Below are positions 1,711 through 24,910 of a DNA stretch of 64,000 nt, in pieces (the first letter of the stretch is position 1; the number at the start of each line of letters is the position of its first letter). The notes beneath the pieces were generated by a model. That model was not told where the DNA came from. It saw only the letters and a program-made list of their open reading frames with translations, and ran no database searches. The stretch is from assembly GCF_004117855.1 (NCBI RefSeq), contig NZ_QWBW01000008.1:62001-126000 (forward strand), written 5' to 3'. This DNA comes from Modicisalibacter coralii. Its GTDB lineage: Bacteria; Pseudomonadota; Gammaproteobacteria; Pseudomonadales; Halomonadaceae. The position numbers and the translations under genes are program-made.

Positions 1711-2565
1711 TCAGCGGGTCTCGACCTGATCGACGCGCATCGACAGGTCGATCGCCTTGACGTCCTTGGTCAGCGCGCCGATCGAGATGCAGTCGACGCC
1801 GGTGGCGGCGATCGCCTCGAGAGTGGTGTCGCTGACGTTGCCGGAGGCTTCCAGGGTCGCCTTGCCGGCGTTACGCGCCACGGCCTCGCGCAAGTCCTCG
1901 AGCGAGAAGTTGTCGAGCATCACCACGTCGGCCTCGGCCGCGAGAGCCTGCTCCAGCTCGTCGAGGTTCTCCACCTCGACCTCCACCGGCAGGTCGCGGG
2001 CGATATTGCGCGCCTCGCGCACCGCCGCGGCGATTCCGCCGCAGGCGGCAATGTGGTTCTCCTTGATCAGGAAGGCATCGTAGAGGCCGATGCGGTGGTT
2101 GTGACAGCCACCGCAGGTCACTGCGTACTTCTGCGCCAGGCGCAGGCCGGGCAGGGTCTTGCGGGTGTCGAGCAGGCGCACGCCGGTATCGGCGACGCGG
2201 TCGGCGTAGTAACGGGCGCGCGTCGCGGTGCCCGAGAGCGTCTGCAGCAGGTTGAGTGCGGCACGCTCGCCGCTCATCAGGCTGCGTGCCGGACCCTCGA
2301 GCTCAACGATCACCTGGCCGGCCTCGAGCCGATCGCCGTCGGCCGCCTTCCAGTCGATCAGCACGCGATGGTCGAGTCGGCGGAACAGTTCGTCGACCCA
2401 CGCCACGCCGCAAAGCACGGCGTTCTCGCGGGTGATCACCCGCGCCTTTGCCCATTGGCGCTCGGGGATCAACTGTGCGGTGATATCGCCGGGGCCGACA
2501 TCCTCGGCGAGCAGGCGCGCGGTGCTGGTTCGGATCTCCTCGGCGAGGGCCTCGTAATAACGCAT
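1711..2565 (-). CDS. nadC: Quinolinate phosphoribosyltransferase (nicotinate-nucleotide pyrophosphorylase), housekeeping copy
   Basis: A 284-residue NadC that converts quinolinate plus PRPP to nicotinate mononucleotide, CO2 and pyrophosphate in de novo NAD synthesis. The start is set at the ATG ending at 2565 ([10 protein letters not shown]), giving normal family length; the longer frame to 2643 would overlap ampD. Active-site blocks are [30 protein letters not shown] (131-142), NHR (156-158) and FLIKENH. The C-terminal [17 protein letters not shown] block is also canonical. The nadC/ampD divergent arrangement is common in gammaproteobacteria and marks this as the core copy. A second, divergent nadC lies at 13037-13885. 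Confidence 0.95.
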
Positions 2566-11427: not shown

Positions 11428-11545
11428 CCGTCTAGGCTTGCTTCATGATAACGAAGAGAGAATGGGCGACCCGTTAGGGTCTGGCCGACTTCCCGGTTTC
11501 ACCCGGTTTACATGACAAGGCCAGTTGTTCACGACAAGGAGCGTT

Positions 11546-12265
11546 ATGTTCCACTGGATCTCGCAACACAACGATGTTCTCACCGTCTTCACCAATGTGG
11601 GCACGCTGTGCATCTGGCTGGTCTATGCTCAGCTGCTCTACTGGGGGTTCCGGCGCCAGCGCCGGCCGCGGCTGATCATCAACCGCGGTAAGAAGAAGGA
11701 CATCAACGCGCTGTGCATCATCAGCAACATGAGCGCCGAGTCGATCTTCATCGAGTACATCATCGCCGAACTAAAGACCAACCAGGGCACGATCACCATG
11801 GATGTCACCGATTTCGAGCAGCAATACAGCGAGGGTGACGAGCTTGATGACAAGGAAGAGGAGCGGCGCCAGCTGCTCAACAACTCCCCTGTGAAGGAAA
11901 ACACCCGCCAGGGGCCGCTGGGGTCGGGGGATTTCCTGCACATCGGCACCTTTGACGACCTGATCCGGCGCATGGCGCGCGACGAGGGTATCGAGATGGA
12001 GGGCCACCGGCCCAAGGGCGATCTCGAGTTCAAGAGCCTGATGGTGCGTCTGATCGGCATCTACGGCCCCGAGGACATGCCGGTAGGTGCCGAACGCGAG
12101 TTCCTCCTGCAGGACAACGATCGCTACTGCTCGCTGACACCGGCTACCTGGGATACCCGGCGGCTGGCTTCGAAGCGTGAGCGCCGCGAGTTACGCCAGA
12201 TGGTCCAGCGTCTCAATTCGACCAACTTCAGCGTGTCGTCGTCCTTCGGGCGTGCCGAGAAGTGA
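11546..12265 (+). CDS. Membrane-anchored protein of unknown function
   Basis: A 239-residue protein that I do not recognise. One N-terminal transmembrane helix (about residues 12-36, VLTVFTNVGTLCIWLVYAQL) is followed by a basic RRQRRPR stop-transfer stretch and a soluble, probably cytoplasmic domain of about 200 residues. That domain is rich in acidic and arginine residues, with a charged run DDKEEERRQ near residue 101. No cysteine pairs, nucleotide-binding loop or catalytic signature stands out. The ATG at 11546 has AAGGAG at 11536-11541, although spaced only 4 bases away. It stands alone between the glnE terminator and aroQ. Real coding is supported by the clean frame and ribosome-binding site. 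Confidence 0.7.
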   Translation: MFHWISQHNDVLTVFTNVGTLCIWLVYAQLLYWGFRRQRRPRLIINRGKKKDINALCIISNMSAESIFIEYIIAELKTNQGTITMDVTDFEQQYSEGDELDDKEEERRQLLNNSPVKENTRQGPLGSGDFLHIGTFDDLIRRMARDEGIEMEGHRPKGDLEFKSLMVRLIGIYGPEDMPVGAEREFLLQDNDRYCSLTPATWDTRRLASKRERRELRQMVQRLNSTNFSVSSSFGRAEK

Positions 12266-12420: not shown

Positions 12421-12852
12421 ATGAGCGCGCACAGAATCCTGGTGCTGCATGGCCCCAACCTCAACCTGCTGGGTAGTCGCCAGCCGGAGATCTATGGCCA
12501 CGAGACGCTCGACGACATCAATAACCGGCTCTATGAAAAGGCTGCGATCAATGGCTGGGATATCACCTGTCGCCAGAGCAACCATGAGGGTGAGCTGATC
12601 GATGCTATCCATGCCGCGCGAACCGATGGCACCGACCTGATTGTCATCAACCCGGCGGCCTACACGCATACCTCGGTAGCGATCCTTGATGCCCTCAATG
12701 CCTACGAGGGGCGGGTCATCGAAGTGCATCTGTCGAATATCCACAAGCGCGAAACGTTCCGCCACCACTCCTACGTCTCGCGGCGCGCTGATGGCGTGAT
12801 CGCTGGCCTGGGTAGTCGAGGCTATCTGCTGGCGCTCGATAGCCTGTCCTGA
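12421..12852 (+). CDS. aroQ: Type II 3-dehydroquinate dehydratase
   Basis: A 143-residue type II dehydroquinase, which interconverts 3-dehydroquinate and 3-dehydroshikimate (shikimate synthesis or quinate breakdown). Family landmarks are [16 protein letters not shown] with Arg20 and the active-site Tyr25, [10 protein letters not shown] (76-85), and EVHLSN with the general-acid His103. The ATG at 12421 has AGGAG at 12408-12412. It is not in the accBC operon where aroQ often lies. Instead it stands at the left edge of the lower-GC phthalate block, convergent with nadC2. A catabolic role cannot be excluded, since dehydroshikimate can feed protocatechuate, but no dehydroshikimate dehydratase is in the window. 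Confidence 0.93.
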
Positions 12853-12881
12853 GCCTCCAGCGCTCGTAGCACATTTTTCCG

Positions 12882-12906
12882 CCATGGCGTTGCGCCATGG
12901 CGTTTT
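12882..12906 (+). terminator. Probable terminator after aroQ
   Basis: CCATGGCG (12882-12889) and CGCCATGG (12893-12900) form a perfect 8-bp stem with a TTG loop, followed by CGTTTT. The T tract is short, so efficiency is uncertain. Confidence 0.55.
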
Positions 12907-13036
12907 GCGTCGATCTGGTGCCAAAGGATTCGCCGACACCCCGTACAGAACAGCAATGCGTCTGGCGGACCCGAAGCAAGAGACGTGTTGGACGTAGCTG
13001 ACGCGTCACTCGAAGCGGTCTCTCAAGGAGAAATCA

Positions 13037-13885
13037 CTATAGCGATAGCCGCATCGAGAGATCCGCTGCCTTGACATCCTTTGTGAGGGTGCCTAGGGAA
13101 ATGTAATCGACTCCCGTCTGAGCGATATCGGCCAGCGTATTTTCAGTAATACCGCCCGACGCTTCCAGTACAGCGCTGCCATTGTTCAACTGGACGGCTG
13201 AATACATGTCATCAAGGGTGAAATTGTCCAGCATGATAATATCGGCTTTGGCTGCGAGAGCTTGTTTCAGCTCGGAAAGGTTTTCAACTTCGATCTCGAT
13301 AGGAGCCTCCAGTCCCGTCTGCCTTGCCGCTGTTATGGCTTCGCTGATACCACCGCAGGACATGATATGGTTTTCCTTGATGAGGAAACCGTCATAGAGA
13401 CCTGTCCGGTGGGAATGGCAGCCACCACAGGTTACAGCATACTTCTGCGCCAGGCGTAGACCGGGCAACGTCTTGCGAGTATCCAGGAGCTTGGCGTGTG
13501 TATTGCCGACCAGGGTTGAATAGGCATGACAACGCGTAGCGATCCCCATCAGCAGCTGCAGGAAGTTGAGAGCGCTACGCTCACCGCTCAAGAGGGAGCG
13601 GGCTGAACCTGACAGGTGACACAACGGGGTATTGGCTTCGACCATGTCTCCGTCCGAAGCCACCCACTCGATCTTCACGCCTTGGTCAATTTCTCGGAAA
13701 ACCTCATCGACCCATCGGCTACCACACATTACGGCACGTTCCCTTGTCGTGACAGTGGCTTCGGCGTGAATGTTCTCGGGAATCAGGTGGCTAGTGATAT
13801 CGCCACTGCCGATGTCCTCCAGAAGTGCTGCGGCGACGTTGTCGTGGATGGCTCGTGCAAGGGCCTCTTTGTCAATCTCGTACAT
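13037..13885 (-). CDS. Second, divergent quinolinate phosphoribosyltransferase (NadC2) beside the phthalate cluster
   Basis: A 282-residue NadC paralog with the full fold and most active-site blocks: [12 protein letters not shown] (133-144), [14 protein letters not shown] and [13 protein letters not shown]. It departs from the housekeeping copy at conserved spots. NHR becomes S158-H159-R160, the TLSG segment becomes LLMG (Met113), YDAF becomes YDGF, and SIGAL becomes SLGTL. The ATG at 13883-13885 has AAGGA upstream. A palindrome sits just before the gene, and a terminator separates it from the TRAP genes, so it is its own transcription unit. Base composition resembles the phthalate block and not the core genes. 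Quinolinate phosphoribosyltransferase activity is expected. The suggestion that it tolerates phthalate, a quinolinate mimic, is inference. ModD is less likely because no molybdate genes are near. Confidence 0.85.
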
Positions 13886-13895
13886 CAGGATGGTC

Positions 13896-13911
13896 CTTTT
13901 AGTGCTAAAAG
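13896..13911. promoter_or_regulatory. Operator-like palindrome directly upstream of nadC2
   Basis: CTTTTAG-TG-CTAAAAG is a perfect 7-bp inverted repeat with a 2-base centre, ending 10 bases before the nadC2 start codon. It overlaps the region of the ribosome-binding site and the probable promoter or leader. It may be a repressor site; the protein is unknown. Confidence 0.5.
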
Positions 13912-14001
13912 TCGTTTTGTGAGCAGTTTCTTAAGAAGAGATTCGGAATTTTCATGCAGGATCGCCGAACGGGCGAAGCAGGGAGCTCGGCTCATAGTCA
14001 G

Positions 14002-14026
14002 AAAAAGGCACCCTGTGAAGGGTGCC
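14002..14026 (-). terminator. Intrinsic terminator of the TAXI-TRAP/phthalate operon
   Basis: On the minus strand GGCACCCT and AGGGTGCC (8-bp stem, 4-base loop, 14007-14026) are followed by TTTTT (14002-14006 complement). It lies 35 bp past the TRAP permease stop and separates that operon from nadC2. Confidence 0.85.
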
Positions 14027-14060
14027 GTAGGATAAGCCGAGGTCGTTTTGGGTTCTTAAA

Positions 14061-15974
14061 TCATGCGGGTATTTTATGATCGCTGTGTCGAAGGTGTGGC
14101 GTAGTCACGAAACAAATGCCAAAGATCACTATGGCCACGATAACTGTCCACCAACTGGGAACGATGAACATCAGGCCCGCTACGCCAAAGCCGACTCTTT
14201 GGAGGGTTTTCAGAGGCTTTCGCCAATAGCCTTCGATTCCGATGCTCAGGAGCAGCACCCCAGCTACCGCCGTCAGGCAGGACATGGCGATATTGGGCCA
14301 ACTCCCGACCAGCAGCAACCCTTCACCATAAACGAAGGCAAAGGGCACAATGAACGCCGTGATGGCCAATTTGACTGCGCCTATTGCGATTTCGGTGGGC
14401 TTTGCGTCTGCTATCGCCGACGCTGCAAAGGCGGCGACGGCTACCGGGGGCGTCATTGCCGACAAGACCGCGAAGTACAAGATGAACATGTTGGTCTGTA
14501 ATACGCTGAACCCCAAGGACAGCAACGTTGGGCTGACCAGGACGGTGGCGAGAATGAAGGCAGATGGTGTGGGCATGCCCATACCGAGAATGATCGCCAA
14601 GATGGCCGAAATGACCAGTGCCAGGAACGCACTGTTACCGGCCAGCAAGAAGACCAGATCGGAGAATTTGCTGCCGAGCCCAGTCATGGAGATGCCGCCG
14701 ATGACGAGCCCGGCAGCCGCACAGGCGGCCACGACAGATACCATGCGTAGGGTGGTAACCGCTAGCGCATCCCAGACCGCCCTGGGGCCCATACGGGTCG
14801 ATTGCCGGAAGGCGGCAACAACCAGAACCATGAAAGTCGAAATGGCAGCCACATAGGTAGGCGAGTACCCCATGACCAGTGCGGTCGACAAGGCTATGAG
14901 CGGAACGATGAAAAGACCGCCATTTTTTAGAGTGCCCTTGAAAGACGGCGTTTCCCCTTTGGTAAGCCCACCAAGGCCCAGCTTCGTCGACCGAAGATGT
15001 ACTTGGCTATAGACACACAGGTAGTAGAGGAGAGCGGGGATGATGCCAGCGATGGCGATATCCCGGTAATCAATGCCGGTGTACTCTGCCATGATAAAGG
15101 CTGCAGAGCCCATGACAGGGGGGAGCAAGCTGCCACCGGTCGAAGCAGCGACTTCGACACTACCCGAGAGCGCCTTGTTGTAACCCAGGCGTTGCATGAT
15201 GGGAATGGTGACAGAGCCCGTCGTCACAACGTCAGAAGTGGGGCTGCCAGACATGGTGCCGTAGAGGCCGGAGGAGATTACTGCAATCTTGGCAGGACCT
15301 CCCGTTCTCCGTCCCGCAATGGCGGAAGATAAATTATAGAAAAATTCGGCGCCACCTGCTTTAGAAAGGAAGGTCCCGAACATGACGAACAGGAACGCAT
15401 AAGTGGCCGCTACCCGCAGGGGAACGCCGAACAGGCCGTCAGAGGTGAACATCATGATGTCCATGAAGTGATTGTAACTCACTTCTCTGAAACCCAATGG
15501 ACCAGGCAGCGAGTGGCCGAACAAGTTATAGACAAGGAACAGGAGAACGACACTGGTCAGGCCCATGCCGACCGTGCGACGCGTCGCTTCTATGGTGAGA
15601 AAGAGCAATACGCTGGACGCGATCAGGTCCGCTGTCTCCAGTGGGAAAAGCAGGGTTATCCTTTCAGCGATACGATCACTCTCGATGAAAAAATAAATGC
15701 CTACCGCTATGCTGGCCGTCACTAACAACCAGTCCAGCAGGCTGGGTCGGTCGGTACGGCCCTTGGGGCCAGCATTGATGACCAAGAATAATACCGCCAG
15801 CATGGCGGACAGGAAGATGACGGTCATCGTGTACAAATCAATATAGACGATGGTCGTCGTGTAAATGACCGCAATCGCTATCAAGGCAGCACATCCATGT
15901 ACTGCCATGCCCAGTTTACCCTTTAGTGGCCGCCTCGTTCCCGTGCCGGCCAAGAGTTTGAAAAACGGAATCAT
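14061..15974 (-). CDS. TRAP transporter fused permease (DctQM fusion, TAXI type)
   Basis: A roughly 637-residue inner-membrane protein with the small and large TRAP permease parts fused. About four helices in the first 170 residues are followed by the DctM-like domain. Family motifs in that domain include YGTMSGSPTSDVVTTG, ASTGGSLLPPVMGSAAF and GMGMPTPSAFIL. TAXI-type TRAP systems use such fusions for sodium-driven uptake of organic acids. Two ATGs are possible. The first (ending at 15983) directly abuts its GAGG, so the second at 15972-15974, 9 bases from GAGG, is preferred. It follows the TAXI binding protein and the phthalate enzymes on the same strand, so phthalate or a related diacid is the likely cargo. 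That substrate is inferred from context only. Confidence 0.92.
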   Translation of the reverse strand: MIPFFKLLAGTGTRRPLKGKLGMAVHGCAALIAIAVIYTTTIVYIDLYTMTVIFLSAMLAVLFLVINAGPKGRTDRPSLLDWLLVTASIAVGIYFFIESDRIAERITLLFPLETADLIASSVLLFLTIEATRRTVGMGLTSVVLLFLVYNLFGHSLPGPLGFREVSYNHFMDIMMFTSDGLFGVPLRVAATYAFLFVMFGTFLSKAGGAEFFYNLSSAIAGRRTGGPAKIAVISSGLYGTMSGSPTSDVVTTGSVTIPIMQRLGYNKALSGSVEVAASTGGSLLPPVMGSAAFIMAEYTGIDYRDIAIAGIIPALLYYLCVYSQVHLRSTKLGLGGLTKGETPSFKGTLKNGGLFIVPLIALSTALVMGYSPTYVAAISTFMVLVVAAFRQSTRMGPRAVWDALAVTTLRMVSVVAACAAAGLVIGGISMTGLGSKFSDLVFLLAGNSAFLALVISAILAIILGMGMPTPSAFILATVLVSPTLLSLGFSVLQTNMFILYFAVLSAMTPPVAVAAFAASAIADAKPTEIAIGAVKLAITAFIVPFAFVYGEGLLLVGSWPNIAMSCLTAVAGVLLLSIGIEGYWRKPLKTLQRVGFGVAGLMFIVPSWWTVIVAIVIFGICFVTTPHLRHSDHKIPA

Positions 15975-16015
15975 CGAAATCATCCTCAGCAGCGAGAGTA
16001 TGCCGGGTTAGTCAG

Positions 16016-17011
16016 TTAACGAAGCCCCGCTTCCTTCAGATAGCGAATAGCCCCTTCGTGGTAGGGCACGCCTTCGGAGGAAGCCATGACTTCGGGGGTC
16101 AACCCTTTCATCGCAGGATGAACGGTGGCGATCTTCTGGTAGTTGTCAAACAGGGCCTTGGTGATGTTGTACGCAGTCTGCTCGTCCATGTCGCTGCGTA
16201 CTGCCAAGGCGGCACTGATGGTCACGGTGGGAATGGCTTCGGGAGCCCACTTGTAGGCACCGCCGGGGATGATAAAAGGCTTGGTGCCTGATTTTTCATC
16301 GACAGCCTTGACCGTGTCTTCTGAAAGCGGCAACAGAGTCAGGTCGATACTATTGCTGGCTTGCAGAATGGAGCTCTGGCGTACAAACAGGCTATTCAGG
16401 AACATATCGATGCGGCGATCCTGGATGAGATTGGACTGCTCACCTGAAGCCGCATAAATAATTTCCCCACCCCAACTTTTAATCTTGTCAGGCCCAGCGC
16501 CGATTTCGTTCAGCATGTCCATGGCAACGCTGGAGGCAATATTGCCTCGCTTGTTGATGGCGATCGTGATCGGGGGCTTGACCTTGGCAATGTCCGAAAA
16601 GGTCTTGATGCCGTATTTCTCGGCAAAGTCCTTCCGCATGACGGCCTGCATGGGGGCCCAGTTGTACAGGTTGGCAAGGACCCTGATGTCCTTGATCGGC
16701 TCCCGGAACGGAGGCGAGCCATCCTGTGCCAGCTTCAACACGGCATCCTCGATGATCGCGAGGCTGGCGTCGTCACGCTCCAGGACGGCGACATTGGCCA
16801 GGCCGCCGCCCGAAGTCTGATAGGTGATCGTCGAACCAGGGTACTCGGCCTTCAAGGCTGAGTCGATGCCAGCCCCCAGCAGCGACCACAATCCACCGGG
16901 AGAGGCACCGGCCACGGTCATTTCGTAACTTTGTGCCGAGGCAGGGTTGATGAGCAGGCTGGGAGCTATAAAGGCGGCTGTGCAGAGCGCTTTCTTGATG
17001 AACTTCTTCAT
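16016..17011 (-). CDS. TAXI family TRAP transporter solute-binding protein
   Basis: A 331-residue periplasmic binding protein. The signal peptide is basic MKKFIKKAL, then hydrophobic AAFIAPSLLINPASA, with cleavage after ASA near residue 26. The mature protein begins QSYEMTVAGASPGGLWSLLG, characteristic of the TAXI (TRAP-associated extracytoplasmic immunogenic) family, with TYQTSGGGLANVAVLE shortly after. The ATG ending at 17011 has GGTGA five bases upstream; the GTG nine bases earlier is less likely. It partners the fused permease 40 bp downstream and lies between that gene and the dihydroxyphthalate decarboxylase. It is therefore probably the ligand receptor of a phthalate-type importer; the ligand is not determinable from sequence. 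Confidence 0.92.
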   Translation of the reverse strand: MKKFIKKALCTAAFIAPSLLINPASAQSYEMTVAGASPGGLWSLLGAGIDSALKAEYPGSTITYQTSGGGLANVAVLERDDASLAIIEDAVLKLAQDGSPPFREPIKDIRVLANLYNWAPMQAVMRKDFAEKYGIKTFSDIAKVKPPITIAINKRGNIASSVAMDMLNEIGAGPDKIKSWGGEIIYAASGEQSNLIQDRRIDMFLNSLFVRQSSILQASNSIDLTLLPLSEDTVKAVDEKSGTKPFIIPGGAYKWAPEAIPTVTISAALAVRSDMDEQTAYNITKALFDNYQKIATVHPAMKGLTPEVMASSEGVPYHEGAIRYLKEAGLR

Positions 17012-17065
17012 TATATTCACCGTGTTTGTCAGGTTTGAAGGTTGTTTTTATAAATAACCATGAAT

Positions 17066-18058
17066 TTATATTTTAAAACTTTCCAGGGTGGAAGGATGGA
17101 ATAGATCCTCGGGTTTGAGTCGGCGACTGGAGAGGCCTTCCGCATGGTGCTGGTTCAGGAAACGCTCGAGGGTATTTTTATTTTCGGCAAAACCATACGA
17201 CCAGAAGTCGTCGCCCATCAAGTTCCGGGCAGCACGGAGCTGATCTTCAACGAAGGGTAGCGTCACTTTCGTGGCGGCAGTATCGCTGAGCTTGGCCACG
17301 GCTAATGCCTTGGACTGTTCGAAGGCCTTGTAGACCGAAAACGGCAGCCAAGGGTGACGTTCGACCAGTGTCTTGCGAATGCCCAATAAATGCATGATCG
17401 GAAAGATACCGGTACGCTGGTACCAGTCCGATGCGGCCTGTTGCGGGTCGGCATAGAGATAGCCCACATGAGGGTGTCCGCGGTCGAAACAGGATGGGGC
17501 ACGTGGCCCCATCACTGCGTCCAGTTCACCCGAGGCGAGCATGCCGGAAAGCGTTTCCCCTGCAGGGATGTTTTCCACATGGACGCCTTCCGGCAGATTG
17601 AGGTTGATTTTCTCGACTCGACCCGGCTGCTCGTAACCGCCGCGCAGCCAAGTGACGTCGCTAGGCTTCAGACCATGGTCTTCTTCGAGAAACAGCCGCG
17701 CCCAGACGTTGGCAGTGAGCTGGTACTCCGGAACGCCGATGCGCTTGCCTCGAAGATCCGCGGGCGTCTCGATGCCTCGGTCGGTGCGGATATAGATCGA
17801 GGTGTGGCGAAAGGCGCGCGAGGGAAACACGGGGACACCCACGTAGGGGCAATTGTCTGCCGCGGTCTTCACCGAGAAACTGCTCAGCGAAAGCTCGGTG
17901 ATGTCGAATTCGGCATGACGAAAAGCGCGGAAGAAAATCTCTTCCGGGTCGTGGAGCATGAACACCGGATCCACGCCGTCGATCTGTACTTCCCCGTCGA
18001 TCAAGGGACGCATGCGATCATAGTTACCTACGGCAATGGAGAGTTCTAGTTTGTTCAT
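17066..18058 (-). CDS. 4,5-dihydroxyphthalate decarboxylase (Pht5/OphC-like)
   Basis: A 330-residue protein of the 4,5-dihydroxyphthalate decarboxylase family, which has an ABC-type periplasmic-binding-protein fold but no signal peptide here. It would decarboxylate 4,5-dihydroxyphthalate to protocatechuate in the cytoplasm. Family-like blocks are SIAVGNYDRMRPLIDGEV at the N-terminus, DITELSLSSF near residue 52, and LRGKRIGVPEYQLTANVWAR near residue 102. The ATG ending at 18058 has AGGA upstream. It lies 66 bp after the Rieske oxygenase in the same operon, as expected for sequential steps. The family also holds uncharacterised binding-like proteins, so the assignment leans partly on context. 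Confidence 0.85.
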   Translation of the reverse strand: MNKLELSIAVGNYDRMRPLIDGEVQIDGVDPVFMLHDPEEIFFRAFRHAEFDITELSLSSFSVKTAADNCPYVGVPVFPSRAFRHTSIYIRTDRGIETPADLRGKRIGVPEYQLTANVWARLFLEEDHGLKPSDVTWLRGGYEQPGRVEKINLNLPEGVHVENIPAGETLSGMLASGELDAVMGPRAPSCFDRGHPHVGYLYADPQQAASDWYQRTGIFPIMHLLGIRKTLVERHPWLPFSVYKAFEQSKALAVAKLSDTAATKVTLPFVEDQLRAARNLMGDDFWSYGFAENKNTLERFLNQHHAEGLSSRRLKPEDLFHPSTLESFKI

Positions 18059-18124
18059 CAGCAGTCCTGGGTCGGTCGTTGATTGTCGTTTGCCGTGTAT
18101 CAGCCGGGATCAGGAACTGATCGG

Positions 18125-19432
18125 CTACTTGGCTTGGGCATCCGCCGCATAGAGTTCGGCTTCCTCGGGCGCGGTGCCCAGCTCGCGCCAATCGGTTTCC
18201 TTGGGGACGACGCCCTGGAAAGATTTCAGCTTGTACTGCGGAATGCGCGGCTCTTCGGTACCAATTGCCGGTCCACCTTGCTGCATGGTCTTGGCCGCCT
18301 GGACCATCTGGCGACGGAACTCGACGATGGCGAGGTCGCTGGCACCAAGGCGGTCGTGGGTGCGGTCGGCAATGGGGCCCATGGTTTCCCACATGGCGAT
18401 GTCCTGGTTGGGGATGCCGCGGATACCGGTGAAACTGGTGCCGAGCTGCATGATCCGCCGATCCTGCCAGTAATTGTTCTCGCGGTTACGGAACTTGTGG
18501 AAGCGCTCGTCCAGATCGATACCGACTTGAGCACCGAGGAATTTGCGCCAGGATTCGGTATCCGGGGTGGTGGCTTCGTCGCCCCAGGCGATGAAGTGGA
18601 ATGCCGTGTGGGTATCATCGATCGGCACATGCAGAATCGCGATATCATAAAGATTATTCGGGGGAATCTGCACGGTGTAAGGAGCAATGAACAGGGTCGT
18701 ACGCACATAGTCGTGCGTTTTGGCATCAGTGATTGGCCGCCGAATTGCCGCGTAACGGAATCCGAAACGAGTCTTTTGCAATTGCAGGCGCGGCGCCTTG
18801 TCCGTGGACGGACGAAGCCAGAGTTTATCGTTGGCTTCGGCACCACCGATGCGTGCGGGGACCATATCGGTGGAATGCAGGGAGGACGAGTGTGCCGAGT
18901 CGATGGCACCTTCCAGAATCTGCGCCCAGTTGCAATCGATGATGATCTTGGCGATCGATACCTTGGTTTCCGGCGTCGGCTGGAACACCGGTGCGGTGAA
19001 TTCCGGCTTCTCCTCGGCGGGCCCCATGTAGACCCAGATGAAACCGGCCTCCTCGTGGGTCGGGTACGCCTTGTGCTTGACCTTTTCGGTCATTTTCGAT
19101 TCCGGCGGCTCGGACGACATTTCGAGGACATTGCCTTCGACGTCCATCTTCCAGCCATGGTACAGACAGCGCAGCCCGCACTCCTCATTGCGGCCCAGCG
19201 CCAGTGATGCGCGGCGGTGAGGACACATCTCGTCCATAACACCAACGCGACCATCAGTGTCGCGGAAGGCTACCAGGTCTTCGCCCAAAAGGCGTACCCG
19301 AACGGGATCGCCGTCCGGTTCGGCGACTTCTTCGGAGAGGCAGGCAGGCAGCCAGTGACGACGCATGATCTGCCCCATGGGGGCGTCACCTTCGACACGG
19401 CAGAGGAGTTCGTTTTCTTCGTGAGTCAACAT
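18125..19432 (-). CDS. Phthalate 4,5-dioxygenase oxygenase subunit (Rieske, Pht3/OphA2-like)
   Basis: A 435-residue Rieske non-heme iron oxygenase alpha subunit. The Rieske cluster ligands are C70-x-H72 (EMCPHRRAS) and C89-xx-H92 (LRCLYHGW). The mononuclear iron site is D178, H181 and H186 in GAIDSAHSSSLH. It would insert O2 into phthalate to give the 4,5-cis-dihydrodiol, with electrons from the reductase encoded at 22596. The start is at the ATG ending at 19432 with GGAG 10 bases upstream; the upstream frame extension is rejected. It heads the operon oxygenase, decarboxylase, TAXI binding protein, TRAP permease. A palindromic operator and a motif shared with the reductase promoter lie just upstream. 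Confidence 0.9.
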   Translation of the reverse strand: MLTHEENELLCRVEGDAPMGQIMRRHWLPACLSEEVAEPDGDPVRVRLLGEDLVAFRDTDGRVGVMDEMCPHRRASLALGRNEECGLRCLYHGWKMDVEGNVLEMSSEPPESKMTEKVKHKAYPTHEEAGFIWVYMGPAEEKPEFTAPVFQPTPETKVSIAKIIIDCNWAQILEGAIDSAHSSSLHSTDMVPARIGGAEANDKLWLRPSTDKAPRLQLQKTRFGFRYAAIRRPITDAKTHDYVRTTLFIAPYTVQIPPNNLYDIAILHVPIDDTHTAFHFIAWGDEATTPDTESWRKFLGAQVGIDLDERFHKFRNRENNYWQDRRIMQLGTSFTGIRGIPNQDIAMWETMGPIADRTHDRLGASDLAIVEFRRQMVQAAKTMQQGGPAIGTEEPRIPQYKLKSFQGVVPKETDWRELGTAPEEAELYAADAQAK

Positions 19433-19484
19433 TGCACGAGATCTCCAGATTGGGTTTGCGACGCTATCCAAGCCTTGTGCAGTG

Positions 19485-19521
19485 AAAATGCTTAGATATC
19501 TAACTTACATGCCTAAGTTAG
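19485..19521. promoter_or_regulatory. Operator cluster in the phthalate oxygenase promoter
   Basis: Overlapping elements are AAAATGCTTAGATAT (19485-19499), the perfect palindrome TTAGATATCTAA (19492-19503), and the inverted repeat CTAACTTA / TAAGTTAG (19500-19507, 19514-19521). On the minus strand TTGGAC followed 17 bases later by TTAGAT could be the promoter, so a protein bound here would block it. The first element recurs with one mismatch before the reductase gene (23613-23627). The MarR protein encoded at 20835 is the obvious candidate ligand; that link is inference. Confidence 0.6.
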
Positions 19522-19589
19522 TCCAAGAGTCCGCAACGTCAAATACGGCGAAAGTCGTATTTTGTGCCGTATTCGCAATATTTTGAGAC

Positions 19590-19830
19590 CTTCGTCTAGA
19601 GGGGCTTCCCGGGATCTGGCGGTAATTCTTCCGCGATCCCTTCGCGCTTGACGCGAGCCCCACGCGGCGACTCGGTATCGTTCGGCCAAGGCGTATTTTC
19701 TGATCGTAGAAAGGCGGAATGGCGAATGGTTTGCAATGACTTATAAAGCATTATCGAGCGGTACTTTATTGTCCGCGATGCGTTCGCGCACCTCGCGCTG
19801 CAGAAAAAGAGAGCACGGCCCATGCGCCTT
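19590..19830 (-). pseudogene. Degenerate remnant of a GntR-type DNA-binding domain
   Basis: Read on the minus strand, LQREVRERIADNKVPLDNAL followed by a stop, then in another frame KYALAERYRVAAWGSRQARR, resembles the winged-helix N-terminus of GntR regulators (pattern Q-x-R-x-x-I-xx-G-x-L-P-P, then LAERFGVSRGTVRQAL). Frame breaks and a stop make it non-functional, and no effector domain follows. The call rests on pattern resemblance only. Confidence 0.3.
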
Positions 19831-19902
19831 GTGCTTGGCACTTATCGAAACTGTCGGGAAGCGGTGGCGGGCAACTACAAAAAGGCTCGTCCGATGGCAT
19901 GA

Positions 19903-19943
19903 CCGTGCGCCCCGCTCCTCGGTCAAGGGAGCGGGGCGCACGG
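19903..19943. other. Strong 16-bp hairpin below the class II aldolase gene
   Basis: Perfect arms at 19903-19918 and 19928-19943 (core GTGCGCCCCGCTCC) with a 9-base loop. A T run in the minus direction exists (complement of 19879-19883) but is about 20 bases away, so this is not a standard intrinsic terminator. It may stabilise the 3' end of the reductase-to-aldolase mRNA. Confidence 0.5.
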
Positions 19944-20044
19944 GGTCGACTGAATTGAACACGCTGATCGGGCAGGAGTGCCGGAGCGATGGCCCCGTCA
20001 GTCGCCGTTGCCAATCATAATGGCGCCGGCGAGCGGGCGGTCGG

Positions 20045-20791
20045 CTAGCGACGTGCCTGGGCGCGCTGCTTCCACAGCTGCCAGGGTCTCTCGACCTGAC
20101 CCTCGATCATCTCCATCGCCGTCTTGGCTTCTCCCGGGGTCAGGTATTCGACAGGACCGAGGCGCAGGGCATCGGCCTGCAGGCGTGCATTCACCTCAAC
20201 GTAAACCGCCCGATAGACGGCTTGCTTGAGTGTTGGGCCGGTGACCGTCGCACCGTGTCCACGCATCAGCACGACATTATTGTCGCCCAGTGAGTGGGCC
20301 AGTGACTCGCCAAGCGGGGCGTTTCGGATCAGCAGGTCCGTGGCGTCACCAGCGACGTCGCGGATCTCGAAGATCGGGGCGCCTTCGCCGATAAAACCGC
20401 TCATGTGACACATGGGTCTCAGCGGCGTCGACTTGACCGCACTGAACGGGACCACCGAGGGTGAATGACTATGCACCACCGCCATCACGTCCGGCCGTGC
20501 CCGGTAGATCTCGCCATGGATGAAGCGCTCGAGATAGACCTTTCGCCCATCGGCGTCAACGGGGGTGCCATCCAGCTCGAACTCGATGATGTCCTCCGCG
20601 CGAACCAGGCCGGGTGCCATGTTGCGCGCGAGCAGGAAGCGATCGGGTCTGTCGGGATGGCGGACACTGACGTGACCGAAGGCATCGAGGACGCCCTCGT
20701 CGAAGAGGATGTGGTTGGCGTGAACCAGGTCTTGCAGCAGGTCGTCGCTATCCGATACCGCAGCAGCGGCTTGCGGGGTTTGGGTATTCAT
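20045..20791 (-). CDS. Class II aldolase/adducin family protein, possible hydroxyphthalate decarboxylase
   Basis: A 248-residue protein of the class II aldolase/adducin fold. Zinc ligands are suggested by VVHSHSPSVVPFS (two His) and the C-terminal MRGHGAT (His), with HGEIYRARPDV ahead of them. Family members include sugar-phosphate aldolases and the PhtC-type 3,4-dihydroxyphthalate decarboxylase of actinobacterial phthalate pathways. The ATG ending at 20791 has AGGGA 7 bases upstream; the extension that overlaps the MarR gene is rejected. It is the last gene of the reductase, dehydrogenase, MarR, aldolase unit. Its exact reaction is open: a second decarboxylase, or an auxiliary lyase acting on a pathway intermediate. 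Confidence 0.75.
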   Translation of the reverse strand: MNTQTPQAAAAVSDSDDLLQDLVHANHILFDEGVLDAFGHVSVRHPDRPDRFLLARNMAPGLVRAEDIIEFELDGTPVDADGRKVYLERFIHGEIYRARPDVMAVVHSHSPSVVPFSAVKSTPLRPMCHMSGFIGEGAPIFEIRDVAGDATDLLIRNAPLGESLAHSLGDNNVVLMRGHGATVTGPTLKQAVYRAVYVEVNARLQADALRLGPVEYLTPGEAKTAMEMIEGQVERPWQLWKQRAQARR

Positions 20792-20834
20792 CTTGGGTCC
20801 CTGATGGCTGGGGTGGGGGGCCTGGCGTGTCGCG

Positions 20835-21320
20835 CTACTCGTTGGCCTCCGCCAGGTTGCTGATAATGGCAAGCAGGGTGCGTCGGGTCGCGCGCAGGTC
20901 GTTCTCGTCGATGCCGGACACGGCACGCTCGTTGATCGTCTCGGCAAGAGGGATCAGGGTTTCCTTGAGGTCGCGACCTTTCTGAGTCAGATAGATGTGA
21001 ATATTCTTGCGGTTGCCGTTGAGTTGGCGCCGCTCGATCAATCCGTTGGCTTCCATGGCTTTCAGAGCCGTGTAGGTCGTTGGCTCCATGAGGCCGGCTT
21101 GTTCACTGAGCTCACGCTGGGTGAGCCCCTCGGTGACCCACAGGATGCGCAGAAACGACCAATGGCCGAAGCTGATGGAGTGTTCCGCTAGCCTGGTCTG
21201 CAAGCTCTTGGTGAGTACGCGTCCGGCATCGCGTATCAAGTGAGCCAGGCGGTCGTCGGGGACGTCCTCCTGCCAGTGCCGAAGCACCGTTACCGTTTCC
21301 TGGGTATTGCTTCGTGCCAT
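20835..21320 (-). CDS. MarR family transcriptional regulator of the phthalate cluster
   Basis: A 161-residue winged-helix MarR protein. The recognition region is LTQRELSEQAGLMEPTTYTALKAMEANGLIERRQLNGNRK (about residues 66-105), followed by the typical LTQKGRDL turn and a dimerisation helix. MarR proteins commonly repress degradation operons until an aromatic ligand binds. It lies between the Gfo/Idh dehydrogenase and the class II aldolase in the same unit, so it is likely autoregulated. The shared motif in front of the reductase and oxygenase genes is its probable target. Ligand and mode are inferred from family and position. Confidence 0.88.
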   Translation of the reverse strand: MARSNTQETVTVLRHWQEDVPDDRLAHLIRDAGRVLTKSLQTRLAEHSISFGHWSFLRILWVTEGLTQRELSEQAGLMEPTTYTALKAMEANGLIERRQLNGNRKNIHIYLTQKGRDLKETLIPLAETINERAVSGIDENDLRATRRTLLAIISNLAEANE

Positions 21321-21363
21321 CGCGGTTTCCTTTTGACGATCCAGTGGGTCTCCCAGCCAACGT

Positions 21364-22569
21364 TTACCTTAACGCAGGAGAGCGGGGGAGTCCCACCTGT
21401 TGGGACAACGCCACATCGCGTCCCGTGTCTGCGGACGTGAGCATGCCCAGGCAGACTTCCATGGTCGCCAGCCCCCATTCACCACAATGGATCGGCGGTC
21501 GATCGTGACGTACGGCGTCGATCAGTTCGTCCAGGACTTCACGACGAGGGATCGCCGGTGGCGCAAGCGGTTCCAGGTACTGGTGATTATCGGCATAGAC
21601 TTGCACCCCTTCGGGGGTGGGGCGAAGGTCGGCGTGATCACACGAGACCAGGATGAAGCCGAAATGATTGTGCGTGATGCCCTCGAGGCTGCTGGTAGCA
21701 AGCGACAGGCCGGCGCCATAGGTGCGGGTGTTCTTGAGTGCGGCCTCTTCCTCGGGGGTCTGTACCTGGGCGAGTCTGCGTCGGGCATGACCGTACTGGC
21801 TGGGGTCGCGTGGCTGACCGAGCTCGCCCGACCAGCCACAGAACTCGTCGCTGTCGAAGTGCGCGAAGCCGCTGTAGGTCATGGTGGCGAAGGGGCCGCC
21901 CTCGAAGCTCAGCAGGGCGCCATAAGCGCCTTCGGTGGGGCGGGCGGCATCCCAGCTGCCGGTGATGGCCCGTACGCTGCTCGCTCGACCGCCTCCCAGT
22001 AGTCGCACGATATCGACCTGATGGGCGGCCTGGCTGAAGACCACGCCGCCACCGCGTGATGTATCCAGTTCCTCGGGACGTCGCGGGCGATAGAGAAAGT
22101 CGGTGAAGTTGAGCGCATGAATCATGCGGACTGCGCCGAACTCGCCGCTGTCGATCAGTTCACGGGTACGCAGATAGGGCGTATCGAAGCTGTGGCTGTG
22201 CCCGACCATCAGCCAGCGTCCGGCCTGGCGCATGGCCGCTATCATGGCCCGGCAATCCTCGAGCGAGAGTGCCATGGGCTTCTCGACGAGGACATGCTTG
22301 CCGTGCGCCGCCGCCAGTTCGACATGCTCGCGGTGAAACTGGTGCGGTGTGGCGACGTAGACGGCTTCGACATCAGGGTTGGCGCACAGCTCGGCAACGT
22401 CGGCGTAAGTCACGGCGTCGAAATCGCTTGCGAATTGCCGCCGGGCCTCCTCTCGAGGATCGGCGGCCGCAACGAGACGAATGCCAGGGTGTGCCGCCAG
22501 GGTCGGCAGCAGCAACATGAAGCCGCGACCGAGACCGGCGATCCCGAGTCGCAAGGGCGGTGGTGTCAT
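21364..22569 (-). CDS. Gfo/Idh/MocA oxidoreductase, probable phthalate 4,5-cis-dihydrodiol dehydrogenase (Pht4/OphB-like)
   Basis: A 401-residue NAD(P)-dependent dehydrogenase. The Rossmann start is LRLGIAGLGRGFMLLLPTL, then the EKP motif in HGKHVLVEKPMALS near residue 100 and the GGGVVFSQAAHQVDIVRLLG helix with its conserved His. Phthalate dihydrodiol dehydrogenases (Pht4, OphB) belong to this superfamily at this length, and the gene neighbours the dioxygenase reductase. It would rearomatise the cis-dihydrodiol to 4,5-dihydroxyphthalate. The ATG ending at 22569 has GGAG 6 bases upstream; the first residues of the longer frame overlap the reductase gene. Sugar dehydrogenase activity would be the alternative for the superfamily but does not fit the cluster. 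Confidence 0.82.
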   Translation of the reverse strand: MTPPPLRLGIAGLGRGFMLLLPTLAAHPGIRLVAAADPREEARRQFASDFDAVTYADVAELCANPDVEAVYVATPHQFHREHVELAAAHGKHVLVEKPMALSLEDCRAMIAAMRQAGRWLMVGHSHSFDTPYLRTRELIDSGEFGAVRMIHALNFTDFLYRPRRPEELDTSRGGGVVFSQAAHQVDIVRLLGGGRASSVRAITGSWDAARPTEGAYGALLSFEGGPFATMTYSGFAHFDSDEFCGWSGELGQPRDPSQYGHARRRLAQVQTPEEEAALKNTRTYGAGLSLATSSLEGITHNHFGFILVSCDHADLRPTPEGVQVYADNHQYLEPLAPPAIPRREVLDELIDAVRHDRPPIHCGEWGLATMEVCLGMLTSADTGRDVALSQQVGLPRSPALR

Positions 22570-22595
22570 GGGATTCTCCGGCGAAAGCGAACGGC

Positions 22596-23585
22596 TCATT
22601 CTGGAAGGTCGATGATTAGTTCTTCCGAGATGGCACGCGAGACGCAGACCATAATGTTGTCCTGGTGTTCGGCCTCTGACAGCACCAGGTCGCGATGGTC
22701 TGCCTCACCTTCCACCAGGCGGGTGCGACAGGAGCCACAGGTGCCGCTTTCGCAGGAGTAAGGGACGTGATGCCCGTTGGCTCTCAACGCTTCGAGAATC
22801 GACACGCCCGCCGGGACAGGCACGGCTTCGCCGGTCTTGGCCAACCGTACGGTGAAGGGCTTGTCATCTTCCTTGCTTGCTGACTTGCGCGTGCCGAAAT
22901 CCTCGAAACGCACACTCGAGGATGACCAGTGCCCCGTCATATCGCGTACGGCTTCCATCAGGCCGCGCGGACCACAACAGTAGACGTGTGCGCCCTTGGG
23001 CTGCTCGAGTACCGGCCACAGGTCGTAAGCATTATCAGGGTCACCCTGGTCATGGTGAATGATGACCTTGCCACGGTACTCGGGGCCGCTCAGCTCCTCG
23101 AGAAAGGCCGTCTGGGCGGCGTCGCGCGTTAGATAATAGAGCTTGAAGGGTTTGCCGCTCGTGGCTCTGAGGTGATGGATCATCGCCATGATCGGTGTGA
23201 TGCCGATACCGCCGGCGATGAAAATGTAGCGTGCCGGATTGCCCTTCAATTCAAAATCGTTATGCGGTTCAGAGACCTGAAGCTGATCCCCGACGCGGGT
23301 TTCGTCGGTCAGGCTCTTCGAGCCACCGGTCCCGGATTCCTCGCGCTTGACCGCGATGACGTAATGGTGATGCTCCTCGGGGTCGTTGCACAGGGAGTAG
23401 CGCCTTACCTGGCCGTTGGGCACCTCGACATAGATATGAGCACCGGGCGTGAACTCTGGCAGATCCTCACCCTCGGGGTGCACGAATTCGATTTGATAGA
23501 TGCCCTCGGCAATGGCATCCAGTGCCTTGACTTCGAGCGCGCTCATGGGGATTTCATCGGATGGGGAGGCCATGGGAAGCACCAT
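22596..23585 (-). CDS. Phthalate dioxygenase reductase (FMN/NAD domain plus 2Fe-2S ferredoxin)
   Basis: An approximately 329-residue class IA reductase. The flavin domain has RRYSLCNDPEEH, the NAD domain has IFIAGGIGITPIMAMIHHL, and the C-terminal plant-type ferredoxin has C278, C283, C286 and C314 (pattern CxxxxCxxC...C). It passes NADH electrons to the Rieske oxygenase encoded at 18125. It heads the second minus-strand unit (reductase, dehydrogenase, MarR, aldolase). The start is uncertain: ATGs ending at 23585 and 23573 both lack a clear ribosome-binding site, and the longer frame to 23675 crosses the promoter. The same architecture occurs in VanB at 41168, a paralog. Confidence 0.88.
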   Translation of the reverse strand: MVLPMASPSDEIPMSALEVKALDAIAEGIYQIEFVHPEGEDLPEFTPGAHIYVEVPNGQVRRYSLCNDPEEHHHYVIAVKREESGTGGSKSLTDETRVGDQLQVSEPHNDFELKGNPARYIFIAGGIGITPIMAMIHHLRATSGKPFKLYYLTRDAAQTAFLEELSGPEYRGKVIIHHDQGDPDNAYDLWPVLEQPKGAHVYCCGPRGLMEAVRDMTGHWSSSSVRFEDFGTRKSASKEDDKPFTVRLAKTGEAVPVPAGVSILEALRANGHHVPYSCESGTCGSCRTRLVEGEADHRDLVLSEAEHQDNIMVCVSRAISEELIIDLPE

Positions 23586-23612
23586 AATTGTCGTCAGTTT
23601 TAAAATTCTTTT

Positions 23613-23627
23613 ATATCTAAGTATTTT
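23613..23627 (-). promoter_or_regulatory. Second copy of the phthalate promoter motif, before the reductase gene
   Basis: On the minus strand AAAATACTTAGATAT matches AAAATGCTTAGATAT of the oxygenase promoter at 14 of 15 positions. It runs into TATAAAAG, so it overlaps a likely -10 region about 30 bases before the reductase start. It is a candidate operator for the cluster's MarR protein. Confidence 0.55.
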
Positions 23628-23703
23628 GGCGAGGCAGATGCAAGTAGGGAGGCATTCAACTTTAGGGGTAGGCAAAGAGCGGTTATAAAAAACCCGGGGA
23701 GGG

Positions 23704-23733
23704 GCGCTGGCTGATCCTGTACATAGCCAGCGG
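23704..23733. other. Hairpin between the AEC transporter gene and the phthalate reductase promoter
   Basis: CGCTGGCT (23705-23712) and AGCCAGCG (23725-23732) form an 8-bp stem with a 12-base loop. In the minus direction a T run (complement of 23687-23692) follows after about 12 bases, so it may act as a weak terminator for the AEC gene. Confidence 0.4.
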
Positions 23734-23851
23734 GATTGCGATTACTCGGTTCTTTCGTGCCGCACCGACGGCGTTATCGCCGTGGTCGGGATGACGGCAT
23801 GAAAGGCTGGCAGGAGGGGGGCGAGGATCACCCGTCACCAGCCAGGACCTG

Positions 23852-24802
23852 TCAGGACAGCGGGAGACGGTAGGTCTCGAGCAACCACAATAGACTGCTG
23901 ACGGTGATGAAGGACATCAGGGTCGCCAGCATCAATGAGGCCGTGCAGAGCTCGCCGTGGCCATAGCGCTGGCCGAGGATCGGGTAGACGCTGAGCATCG
24001 GTGCGCTGGCCATGATGATTGCTGCGGTAGTCAGGGCGGGGTCGGTGGGCGGCAGCCAGAGCAGCAGCAGGAACACTGCCAAGGGATGCAGCAGCAGCTT
24101 GCCGATGACGATCTGGCCGACGTCGCCGAGCATGCCGCCGATGCGCAGCCCGTGGAGCGTGCCGCCGATCACGAACAGCGCCGTGGGCGCGGAGGCCGAG
24201 GCCAGCATGTCGATCGCCTTGGCCAACGGGGCGGGCAGTTCGAAGCCGCTGAGGGCGACGACGACACCGGCACAGATACCGATCACCAGCGGGTTGCGGG
24301 TGAGCCGAGCCAACGTCTGACGCAGCGTGATGAAGAACGAGGCGTCCTGCTGGCGTCCTGCCTCGGCCAGCGCCAGCGCGGTGGGGATCATCAGCAGGTT
24401 CTCGACCACCATACTCAGCGCCATGGCGATGACCGCGGTTGACCCGACAGCCATGGCGGCGATGGGATAGCCGATGAAGCCGCTATTGGAGGCCGACATG
24501 CCCAGCGCCATGATGCCGCTATCGCCGAGCGACTTGCGGCGCACCCGGGTCATGAACAGCAGAGCGCCGGCGAAGGCCGCCACCGAGCCCAAAACATAGG
24601 CGCTCAGATAGACCGGATCGAAGACCTCGCTCAGCGGGTGCTCGACCAGGGCGCGGAAGATCAGCGAGGGCAGCGCGAAGTTGATCACGAAACCGCCTAG
24701 CCCCTGGACCTGAGCCTTGCTGAGCAGCCGGGTCATGACGGCCAAATACCCAATGCCGATCAGCAGGAAGATCGGGGTGGTGATGGCAAGTATGTCGAGC
24801 AC
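23852..24802 (-). CDS. AEC family transporter (auxin efflux carrier type)
   Basis: A 316-residue integral membrane protein with about ten helices in the inverted five-plus-five AEC arrangement. Helical breaks occur at GFVINFALPSLIFRAL and GMSASNSGFIGYPIAA. AEC proteins in bacteria move organic anions such as malonate or malate; the substrate here is unknown. The start is taken as GTG at 24800-24802 because AAGGA lies 7 bases upstream; a TTG 21 bases earlier is weaker. It follows the IclR regulator on the same strand by about 108 bp and could be cotranscribed, which would link it to beta-ketoadipate metabolism. Confidence 0.85.
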   Translation of the reverse strand: MLDILAITTPIFLLIGIGYLAVMTRLLSKAQVQGLGGFVINFALPSLIFRALVEHPLSEVFDPVYLSAYVLGSVAAFAGALLFMTRVRRKSLGDSGIMALGMSASNSGFIGYPIAAMAVGSTAVIAMALSMVVENLLMIPTALALAEAGRQQDASFFITLRQTLARLTRNPLVIGICAGVVVALSGFELPAPLAKAIDMLASASAPTALFVIGGTLHGLRIGGMLGDVGQIVIGKLLLHPLAVFLLLLWLPPTDPALTTAAIIMASAPMLSVYPILGQRYGHGELCTASLMLATLMSFITVSSLLWLLETYRLPLS

Positions 24803-24910
24803 GGCGAATTCCTTGATGAGCAACGTGTTTCGCGGTGATGCATGATCCCGTTGCGCAGCTATTCGAGGATCGGGACACGCGATCGCCGAGGCACGTTGCC
24901 GCTGCCGGTG

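Follow-up and report, generated by a model that had tools for sequence, protein, structure and literature searches.

Quinolinate phosphoribosyltransferase genes in phthalate clusters

The closest described systems are two quinolinate phosphoribosyltransferase (QPRTase) genes of phthalate degraders. As summarised in a passage of PMC6051330, which cites Chang and Zylstra (1999, J Bacteriol 181:3069) for it, the QPRTase of Burkholderia cepacia DBO1 (OphE) enhances growth on phthalate without being required for phthalate metabolism. The same paper, where it deals with Sphingobium yanoikuyae SHJ, describes the QPRTase gene phtD as part of a phthalate cluster that also holds a MarR regulator gene (PMC6051330). 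Uptake of o-phthalate by TAXI-TRAP transporters is documented in denitrifiers, according to the passage of PMC13040137 on this point.

The window analysed here, a stretch of 64,000 nucleotides from Modicisalibacter coralii (Halomonadaceae), carries the housekeeping gene nadC1 and, beside a phthalate cluster, a second copy called nadC2 (Table 1). This gene is of the OphE/PhtD kind, being a second NadC gene beside a phthalate cluster, and those members of the genus that lack phthalate genes carry a single nadC. It resembles the OphE gene as a second, dissimilar NadC next to phthalate 4,5-dioxygenase pathway genes, presumably with the same purpose, whereas it lies past a TAXI-TRAP operon and the neighbour of OphE in Burkholderia is an ophD-type permease. 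With phtD it shares the location in a phthalate cluster that includes a MarR gene, but the other sphingomonad cluster copies (L177, L182, L184) group with a Sphingomonas core NadC in the tree and stand in another gene order. With nadC1 it has in common the family and the contact residues, and it differs from it in sequence (62% identity), in GC content and in being tied to the phthalate island. The idea of the initial annotation that nadC2 protects the cell from its own phthalate is sound but not new, since OphE (1999) and phtD precede it.

Table 1. Position of nadC1, nadC2, the phthalate genes and the associated signals in the window
Feature	Position	Strand	Basis
nadC1, housekeeping copy for comparison	1711..2565	-	profile match, tree
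nadC2, OphE-like second carboxylating nicotinate-nucleotide diphosphorylase (quinolinate phosphoribosyltransferase)	13037..13885	-	ORF, profile match
16-bp inverted repeat just upstream of nadC2 start	13896..13911	.	two 7-bp arms, 2-bp spacer
Intrinsic-terminator-like hairpin between TRAP gene and nadC2	14007..14026	-	8 bp, T-rich tail
TRAP transporter fused permease, putative phthalate uptake	14061..15983	-	profile match, literature
TAXI-family solute-binding protein	16016..17020	-	profile and further match
4,5-Dihydroxyphthalate decarboxylase	17066..18058	-	structure-database match
Phthalate 4,5-dioxygenase-type Rieske oxygenase	18125..19432	-	structure-database match
Palindromic operator-like site, TTAGATATCTAA core, upstream of oxygenase operon	19491..19504	.	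conserved
Class II aldolase/adducin-family protein	20045..20794	-	profile match
MarR-family regulator, candidate regulator of cluster	20835..21320	-	profile match
Gfo/Idh/MocA dehydrogenase, candidate cis-phthalate dihydrodiol dehydrogenase	21364..22599	-	profile match; putative role
Phthalate dioxygenase reductase, predicted start codon	22596..23585	-	structure-database match
Second operator-like site, 2 mismatches to 14-mer, upstream of reductase gene	23608..23621	.	motif search

The nadC2 gene and its neighbours

The nadC2 reading frame is intact (282 aa, ATG start) and its product scores 300.5 bits against NCBIfam nadC (TIGR00078, curated cut-off 198.4 bits) over profile positions 2-268 of 269, NadC1 reaching 320.7 bits. 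This is the score of a NadC equivalog, far above ModD. By score and contact residues, NadC2 is a member of the NadC/type II quinolinate phosphoribosyltransferase family, with the corresponding predicted activity. Both proteins align without gaps over 274 aa and correspond to the two TIGR00078 matches of the 4.44-Mb genome. The gene had initially been described as a complete second copy past the terminator of the phthalate/TAXI-TRAP operon, with the low GC of that operon, and both points hold. Indeed, a hairpin (14026-14007) separates it from the TRAP gene, and its GC and GC3 (0.545/0.615) are low as in the oxygenase to TRAP genes (0.554-0.596/0.662-0.720) and unlike those of nadC1 (0.682/0.884). 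A similar hairpin is seen by eye at the matching place in locus L064.

The genome also contains nadA. As regards nicotinate salvage, which is a mere possibility here, the nicotinate phosphoribosyltransferase profile TIGR01514 gives sub-cut-off matches only, all in one 490-aa frame. Another neighbour, aroQ (12421-12852), was considered as a catabolic second copy and ruled out, as it is the sole type II dehydroquinase match in the genome. Between glnE and aroQ lies an unannotated ORF (11525-12265, + strand, 246 aa, TTG start), the stretch of which is kept at 77-81% DNA identity in L064 and in G013, a more distant member of the genus.

Upstream of nadC2 and on the same strand, the gene order is Rieske oxygenase, decarboxylase, TAXI binding protein and TRAP permease, and a second gene group includes the reductase, the Gfo/Idh/MocA dehydrogenase, the MarR regulator and the aldolase-type gene. 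The identification of these neighbours as phthalate genes is supported by solved structures: the reductase matches 2pia, a phthalate dioxygenase reductase (E 3e-106), and the decarboxylase matches 9jp7, a 4,5-dihydroxyphthalate decarboxylase (E 3e-142). The best matches of the oxygenase are 7fjl, 7v25 and 7v28 (7fjl, E 5e-205), entries labelled Rieske protein that we take to be the phthalate dioxygenase of Comamonas testosteroni KF1, followed by 7fhr, labelled putative phthalate 4,5-dioxygenase (E 1.5e-72). The Gfo/Idh/MocA gene is a candidate for the cis-phthalate dihydrodiol dehydrogenase, judging from the gene order and by analogy with OphB/Pht4.

Linkage of nadC to phthalate genes

Within the genus, the decarboxylase occurs in 4 of 14 genomes. 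All four have two nadC, whereas each of the ten others has one, nadC2 being missing where the phthalate genes are missing. In a family sample of 201 genomes, 13 have the decarboxylase, and a second nadC match is present in 9 of these 13 against 2 of the 188 without it (Fisher p 3e-11), the second match of one of these two (G137) lying under the family cut-off. The remaining four genomes with the decarboxylase (G018, G175, G177, G199) have one nadC only, and their loci hold oxygenase, decarboxylase and TAXI-TRAP.

A wider locus set was obtained by scanning genome contigs with the decarboxylase and keeping the best 80 of 415 relatives, some of these loci being cut by contig ends or sharing one genome. 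Among these best 80, 61 hold the oxygenase with a dehydrogenase or a reductase, and nadC is present in 36 of the 61 (33 full-length copies and, in L073, L074 and L141, broken pieces only) and lacking in 25. Only one of the 19 other loci, L079, cut on one side by a contig end, holds nadC. The 25 nadC-less loci (L066, L069, L070, L071, L084, L085, L088-L094, L096-L099, L101-L105, L108, L117, L127) include four of Halomonadaceae and Marinobacter with the oxygenase-decarboxylase-TAXI-TRAP order of the window. Close kin of the window's cluster are found among them. Broken or split nadC genes in or beside phthalate clusters are seen in L073, L074, L118 and L141, some of which may be draft sequencing errors.

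Whole-genome nadC counts cover 48 genomes from 49 chosen loci of the 80, L126 being left out. At least two nadC matches, pieces counted, are present in all 31 genomes from nadC-bearing clusters, so that the cluster copy is the extra one. Among 13 genomes from nadC-less clusters, 12 have one nadC and one (G206) has two, and of the remaining four genomes three have at least two and one has none. The presence of nadC in phthalate clusters is common, not universal. The enrichment of nadC paralogs near phthalate genes that the initial annotation had expected is therefore found among loci (36/61) as well as among family genomes (9/13 vs 2/188), but a second NadC is not required in every case, as 25 of the 61 loci lack nadC and 12 of 13 genomes of this kind have a single one.

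Plasmid records matching NadC2 number 303, and 12 regions were chosen among 60 of them, which gives examples rather than an unbiased count. Nine of these 12 regions have phthalate genes near nadC (Polaromonas, Acidovorax, Paraburkholderia, Massilia, Thalassospira, Neptuniibacter and three Sphingobium), and three have nadC without phthalate genes (P. veronii, Sphingomonas parapaucimobilis, Mesorhizobium). In two of the nine, L176 and L177, the nadC gene overlaps the decarboxylase or oxygenase gene or lies directly against it. On the plasmid of Massilia sp. WG5 (L181), the phthalate cluster with its nadC lies between IS6 copies, and part of the cluster is repeated past the second copy. The phylum sample is thin, with the oxygenase in 5 of 398 genomes, two of them outside the family; nadC lies about 7 kb away in one (G267), and the other (G336) has a single nadC, none being near the oxygenase.

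Origin and movement of the cluster copies

A NadC tree was computed by a quick method on 95 of 143 distinct rows after thinning, and eight fragments shorter than 230 aa (L073, L074, L118, L141) were left out of both tree and residue counts. Copies were labelled as cluster copies when two phthalate genes stood within 12 kb. This rule put L175 (Neptuniibacter plasmid), L079 and L184 in the core; L079 was moved by hand to the cluster set in the AU test and the residue counts and L184 in the residue counts, while L175 stayed core. The core rows also include second or third paralogs, such as L155-L157, L186 and L191.

The cluster copies are scattered in this tree. Those of Halomonadaceae and other Gammaproteobacteria (gamma) stand among gamma cores, and those of Burkholderiales (beta) stand beside Burkholderiales cores, with separate branches for the Comamonadaceae, Massilia, Thalassospira and sphingomonad copies. 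A single clade of gamma and beta cluster copies is rejected (AU p 7.4e-7, 31 rows held together), for a group named after the tree was seen and on a quick tree. As these copies do not form one clade, nadC was recruited into phthalate clusters at least twice; any higher number should be read with care, the tree having weakly supported nodes and long branches. If the Burkholderiales cluster copies are OphE, as we assume from gene order, nadC2 would not be orthologous to it, on the strength of the same test.

A comparison of the window with G013 points to joint movement. From about 13.25 to 20.5 kb, a block that takes in the larger part of nadC2 and the oxygenase operon in full, 21 of the 29 windows (250 bp each) are at least 97% identical and the lowest one is at 91.2%, whereas the immediate flanks are at 72-88%; a further patch of 100% lies at 21.75-22.5 kb. 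At the protein level, the nadC1 copies are 88% identical and the nadC2 copies 99%. Given this near-identical block between diverged flanks, nadC2 seems to have been transferred as one block with the oxygenase operon. The cluster nadC copies are under purifying selection, as judged from dN/dS values of 0.05-0.27 in eight pairs, in one of which dS is close to saturation.

Signals upstream of nadC2 and of the phthalate operons

The nadC2 gene had been credited with its own palindrome and promoter region, of which only the former was found. The inverted repeat upstream of its start has one other match within 3 mismatches in the window (55891), against an average of 0.02 in shuffles. The near-identical copy found in G013 (L233) has the repeat too, and visual inspection of the 200 bp preceding nadC in L064 shows none. 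As for the promoter, a sigma-70 scan of 12800-24900 gives four sites, with 4.6 expected in shuffles, and none at nadC2.

The TTAGATATCTAA palindrome recurs in gamma and beta clusters, in most cases about 50-100 bp ahead of an oxygenase or reductase gene. Exact sites number 19 in the 19 gamma loci (390 kb in all), where each of 20 first-order resamples gives 0-1. As a putative operator, the palindrome may be bound by the MarR regulator of the cluster. An imperfect copy with 3 mismatches (19504-19517) adjoins the site upstream of the oxygenase, and paired operator-like sites are likewise present in L064, L069, L070 and L071.

Of the 36 loci with nadC, seven (L075, L076, L086, L114, L115, L120, L142) have the TTAGATATCTAA core with one mismatch upstream of this gene, and these searches give no such operator-like site upstream of nadC in the 29 others. 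A common operator for the window's nadC2 and the phthalate operons was considered and discarded, no site within 3 mismatches of the 14-mer being found near nadC2, whose own palindrome is unrelated to the TTAGATATCTAA site. With no operator-like palindrome nearby and a terminator before the gene, induction of nadC2 by phthalate, through read-through or a promoter of its own, is hypothetical, which counts against its proposed role in the cluster.

Role of nadC2 and the question of tolerance

The best explanation is that nadC2 encodes an accessory quinolinate phosphoribosyltransferase of the phthalate island that does the job of OphE, to which we give a probability of about 0.8. It is based on gene identity, contact residues, linkage, absence of the gene from genus members without phthalate genes, near-identity of the block to G013 and purifying selection. 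Against it stand the 25 loci without nadC, four of them with the window's gene order, and the single nadC of 12 out of 13 such genomes and of 4 out of 13 family genomes with the decarboxylase. Phthalate taken up as food is a structural mimic of quinolinate that occupies NadC, and the cluster-borne second NadC would let enough quinolinate pass to nicotinate mononucleotide to sustain NAD synthesis during phthalate breakdown, the phthalate load being the presumed reason for its presence. The OphE effect was reportedly explained by Chang and Zylstra through a raised enzyme level against competitive inhibition, together with consumption of quinolinate by the phthalate pathway. Of the initial proposal of a self-protection gene, the linkage stands and the residues named as tolerance marks do not. 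Within the accessory role, extra enzyme capacity, which we put at about even odds, is likelier than a phthalate-tolerant active site.

Such a tolerant isozyme, whose pocket would reject phthalate and still bind quinolinate like a resistant target copy, would serve the same purpose by other means and is a tentative alternative. The residues proposed for it, S158-H-R, L111-L-M-G and S263-L-G-T-L, are present in NadC2. They had been placed at normally conserved positions, which is correct for N158 (96/96 core rows) and S113 (95/96) and incorrect for positions 111, 115, 264 and 266, variable among core NadCs. In the residue counts, which use all 143 rows (47 cluster and 96 labelled core), 10 of the 47 cluster copies, each of them gamma, have S158, which is found in none of the 96 core rows, and M113 (LLMG) occurs in 2 of 47, namely the window and its 99%-identical copy.

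NadC2 and each of the 47 cluster copies retain H159, R160, K170, R103, R137 and K138, and this conservation argues against a tolerant pocket. We take R103, R137 and K138 to be substrate contacts from bacterial structures. For the human enzyme, the relevant passage of PMC4726147 names H160, R161 and K171 as quinolinate-contact residues. Human QPRT, whose sequence carries S-H-R, is described there as binding phthalate in a mode highly similar to quinolinate, with Kd values of 5.2 uM for phthalate and 4.8 uM for quinolinate, the former rising to 33 uM, six-fold weaker, with PRPP saturated (PMC4726147). Because this enzyme has S-H-R and nevertheless binds phthalate as well as quinolinate, S158 alone is no mark of tolerance. 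The expected recurrence of S-H-R and LLMG as a shared tolerance signature is rejected, LLMG being confined to the window's type.

Position 161, right after the carboxylate-binding H-R, speaks in favour of tolerance, as it shifts in all three comparisons. In Halomonadaceae, the core I becomes M or T in 9 of 10 cluster rows, other gamma cluster rows have M in 8 of 8, and in beta the core L becomes R in 19 of 23 cluster rows and stays L in four. M161 is also found in two Comamonadaceae cluster rows and Massilia, but likewise in Sphingomonas and Marinomonas core copies. Positions 264 and 266 are often changed in cluster copies, but in other paralogs too. Halomonadaceae and beta have 23 shifted columns in common, more than the 13.8 expected (p 0.002). 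Between nadC2 and its kin, identity is 62-64%, compared with 88-90% for the decarboxylases, so that nadC2 seems to change fast. Both observations would fit a tolerant pocket. Against it, the shifted positions do not concentrate in the active site as we delimited it, with 5 vs 7.3 expected in Halomonadaceae, 4 vs 5.3 in other gamma and 5 vs 8.2 in beta. Moreover, beta cluster copies have the ordinary H159 (23/23) where Burkholderiales cores have Q. These cores (e.g., L203, L217) read N-Q-R in 25 of 25 rows, the other rows having N-H-R or S-H-R.

The residue shifts leave room for an altered ligand preference and prove none. The claim of phthalate tolerance is weaker than the linkage. It is doubtful, though conceivable, that several recruitments drew on the nadC of their own lineages (gamma, beta, probably Comamonadaceae, Massilia, Thalassospira and sphingomonads) and converged on changes at 161 (M/R) and 264/266 (around G265) that lower phthalate binding, which would make them repeatedly evolved resistant target copies in a catabolic setting instead of an antibiotic one.

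We consider it unlikely that nadC2 is a redundant passenger that rode along with the catabolic operon and has no role. Many genomes have clusters without nadC, and the broken copies of L073, L074, L118 and L141 would fit a dispensable gene, but cluster copies stand beside the same genes in several separate groups, they are under purifying selection, and second copies are rare without the cluster. Chance linkage is implausible. A new substrate, some other pyridine or benzene dicarboxylate phosphoribosylated for uptake trapping or detoxification, would suit the fast divergence of nadC2 and its place past the uptake operon, but is very improbable given the NadC equivalog score far above ModD, the retention of all listed quinolinate-contact residues and the lack, in a benzene ring, of a nitrogen to which the ribosyl group could be attached.

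Significance

To OphE and phtD, the survey adds the breadth and the repeated recruitment of cluster nadC, on which no paper was found in a literature coverage that excludes most subscription journals. Clusters with and without nadC form matched natural pairs and, together with the separate recruits, may serve to set dosage against tolerance. In the engineering of phthalate-eating strains, nadC may serve as a cheap helper gene. The threat that phthalate catabolism poses to NAD supply, described for a single strain of Burkholderia, may be general across several proteobacterial lineages, and a second nadC would be one answer to it without being that of every phthalate degrader.
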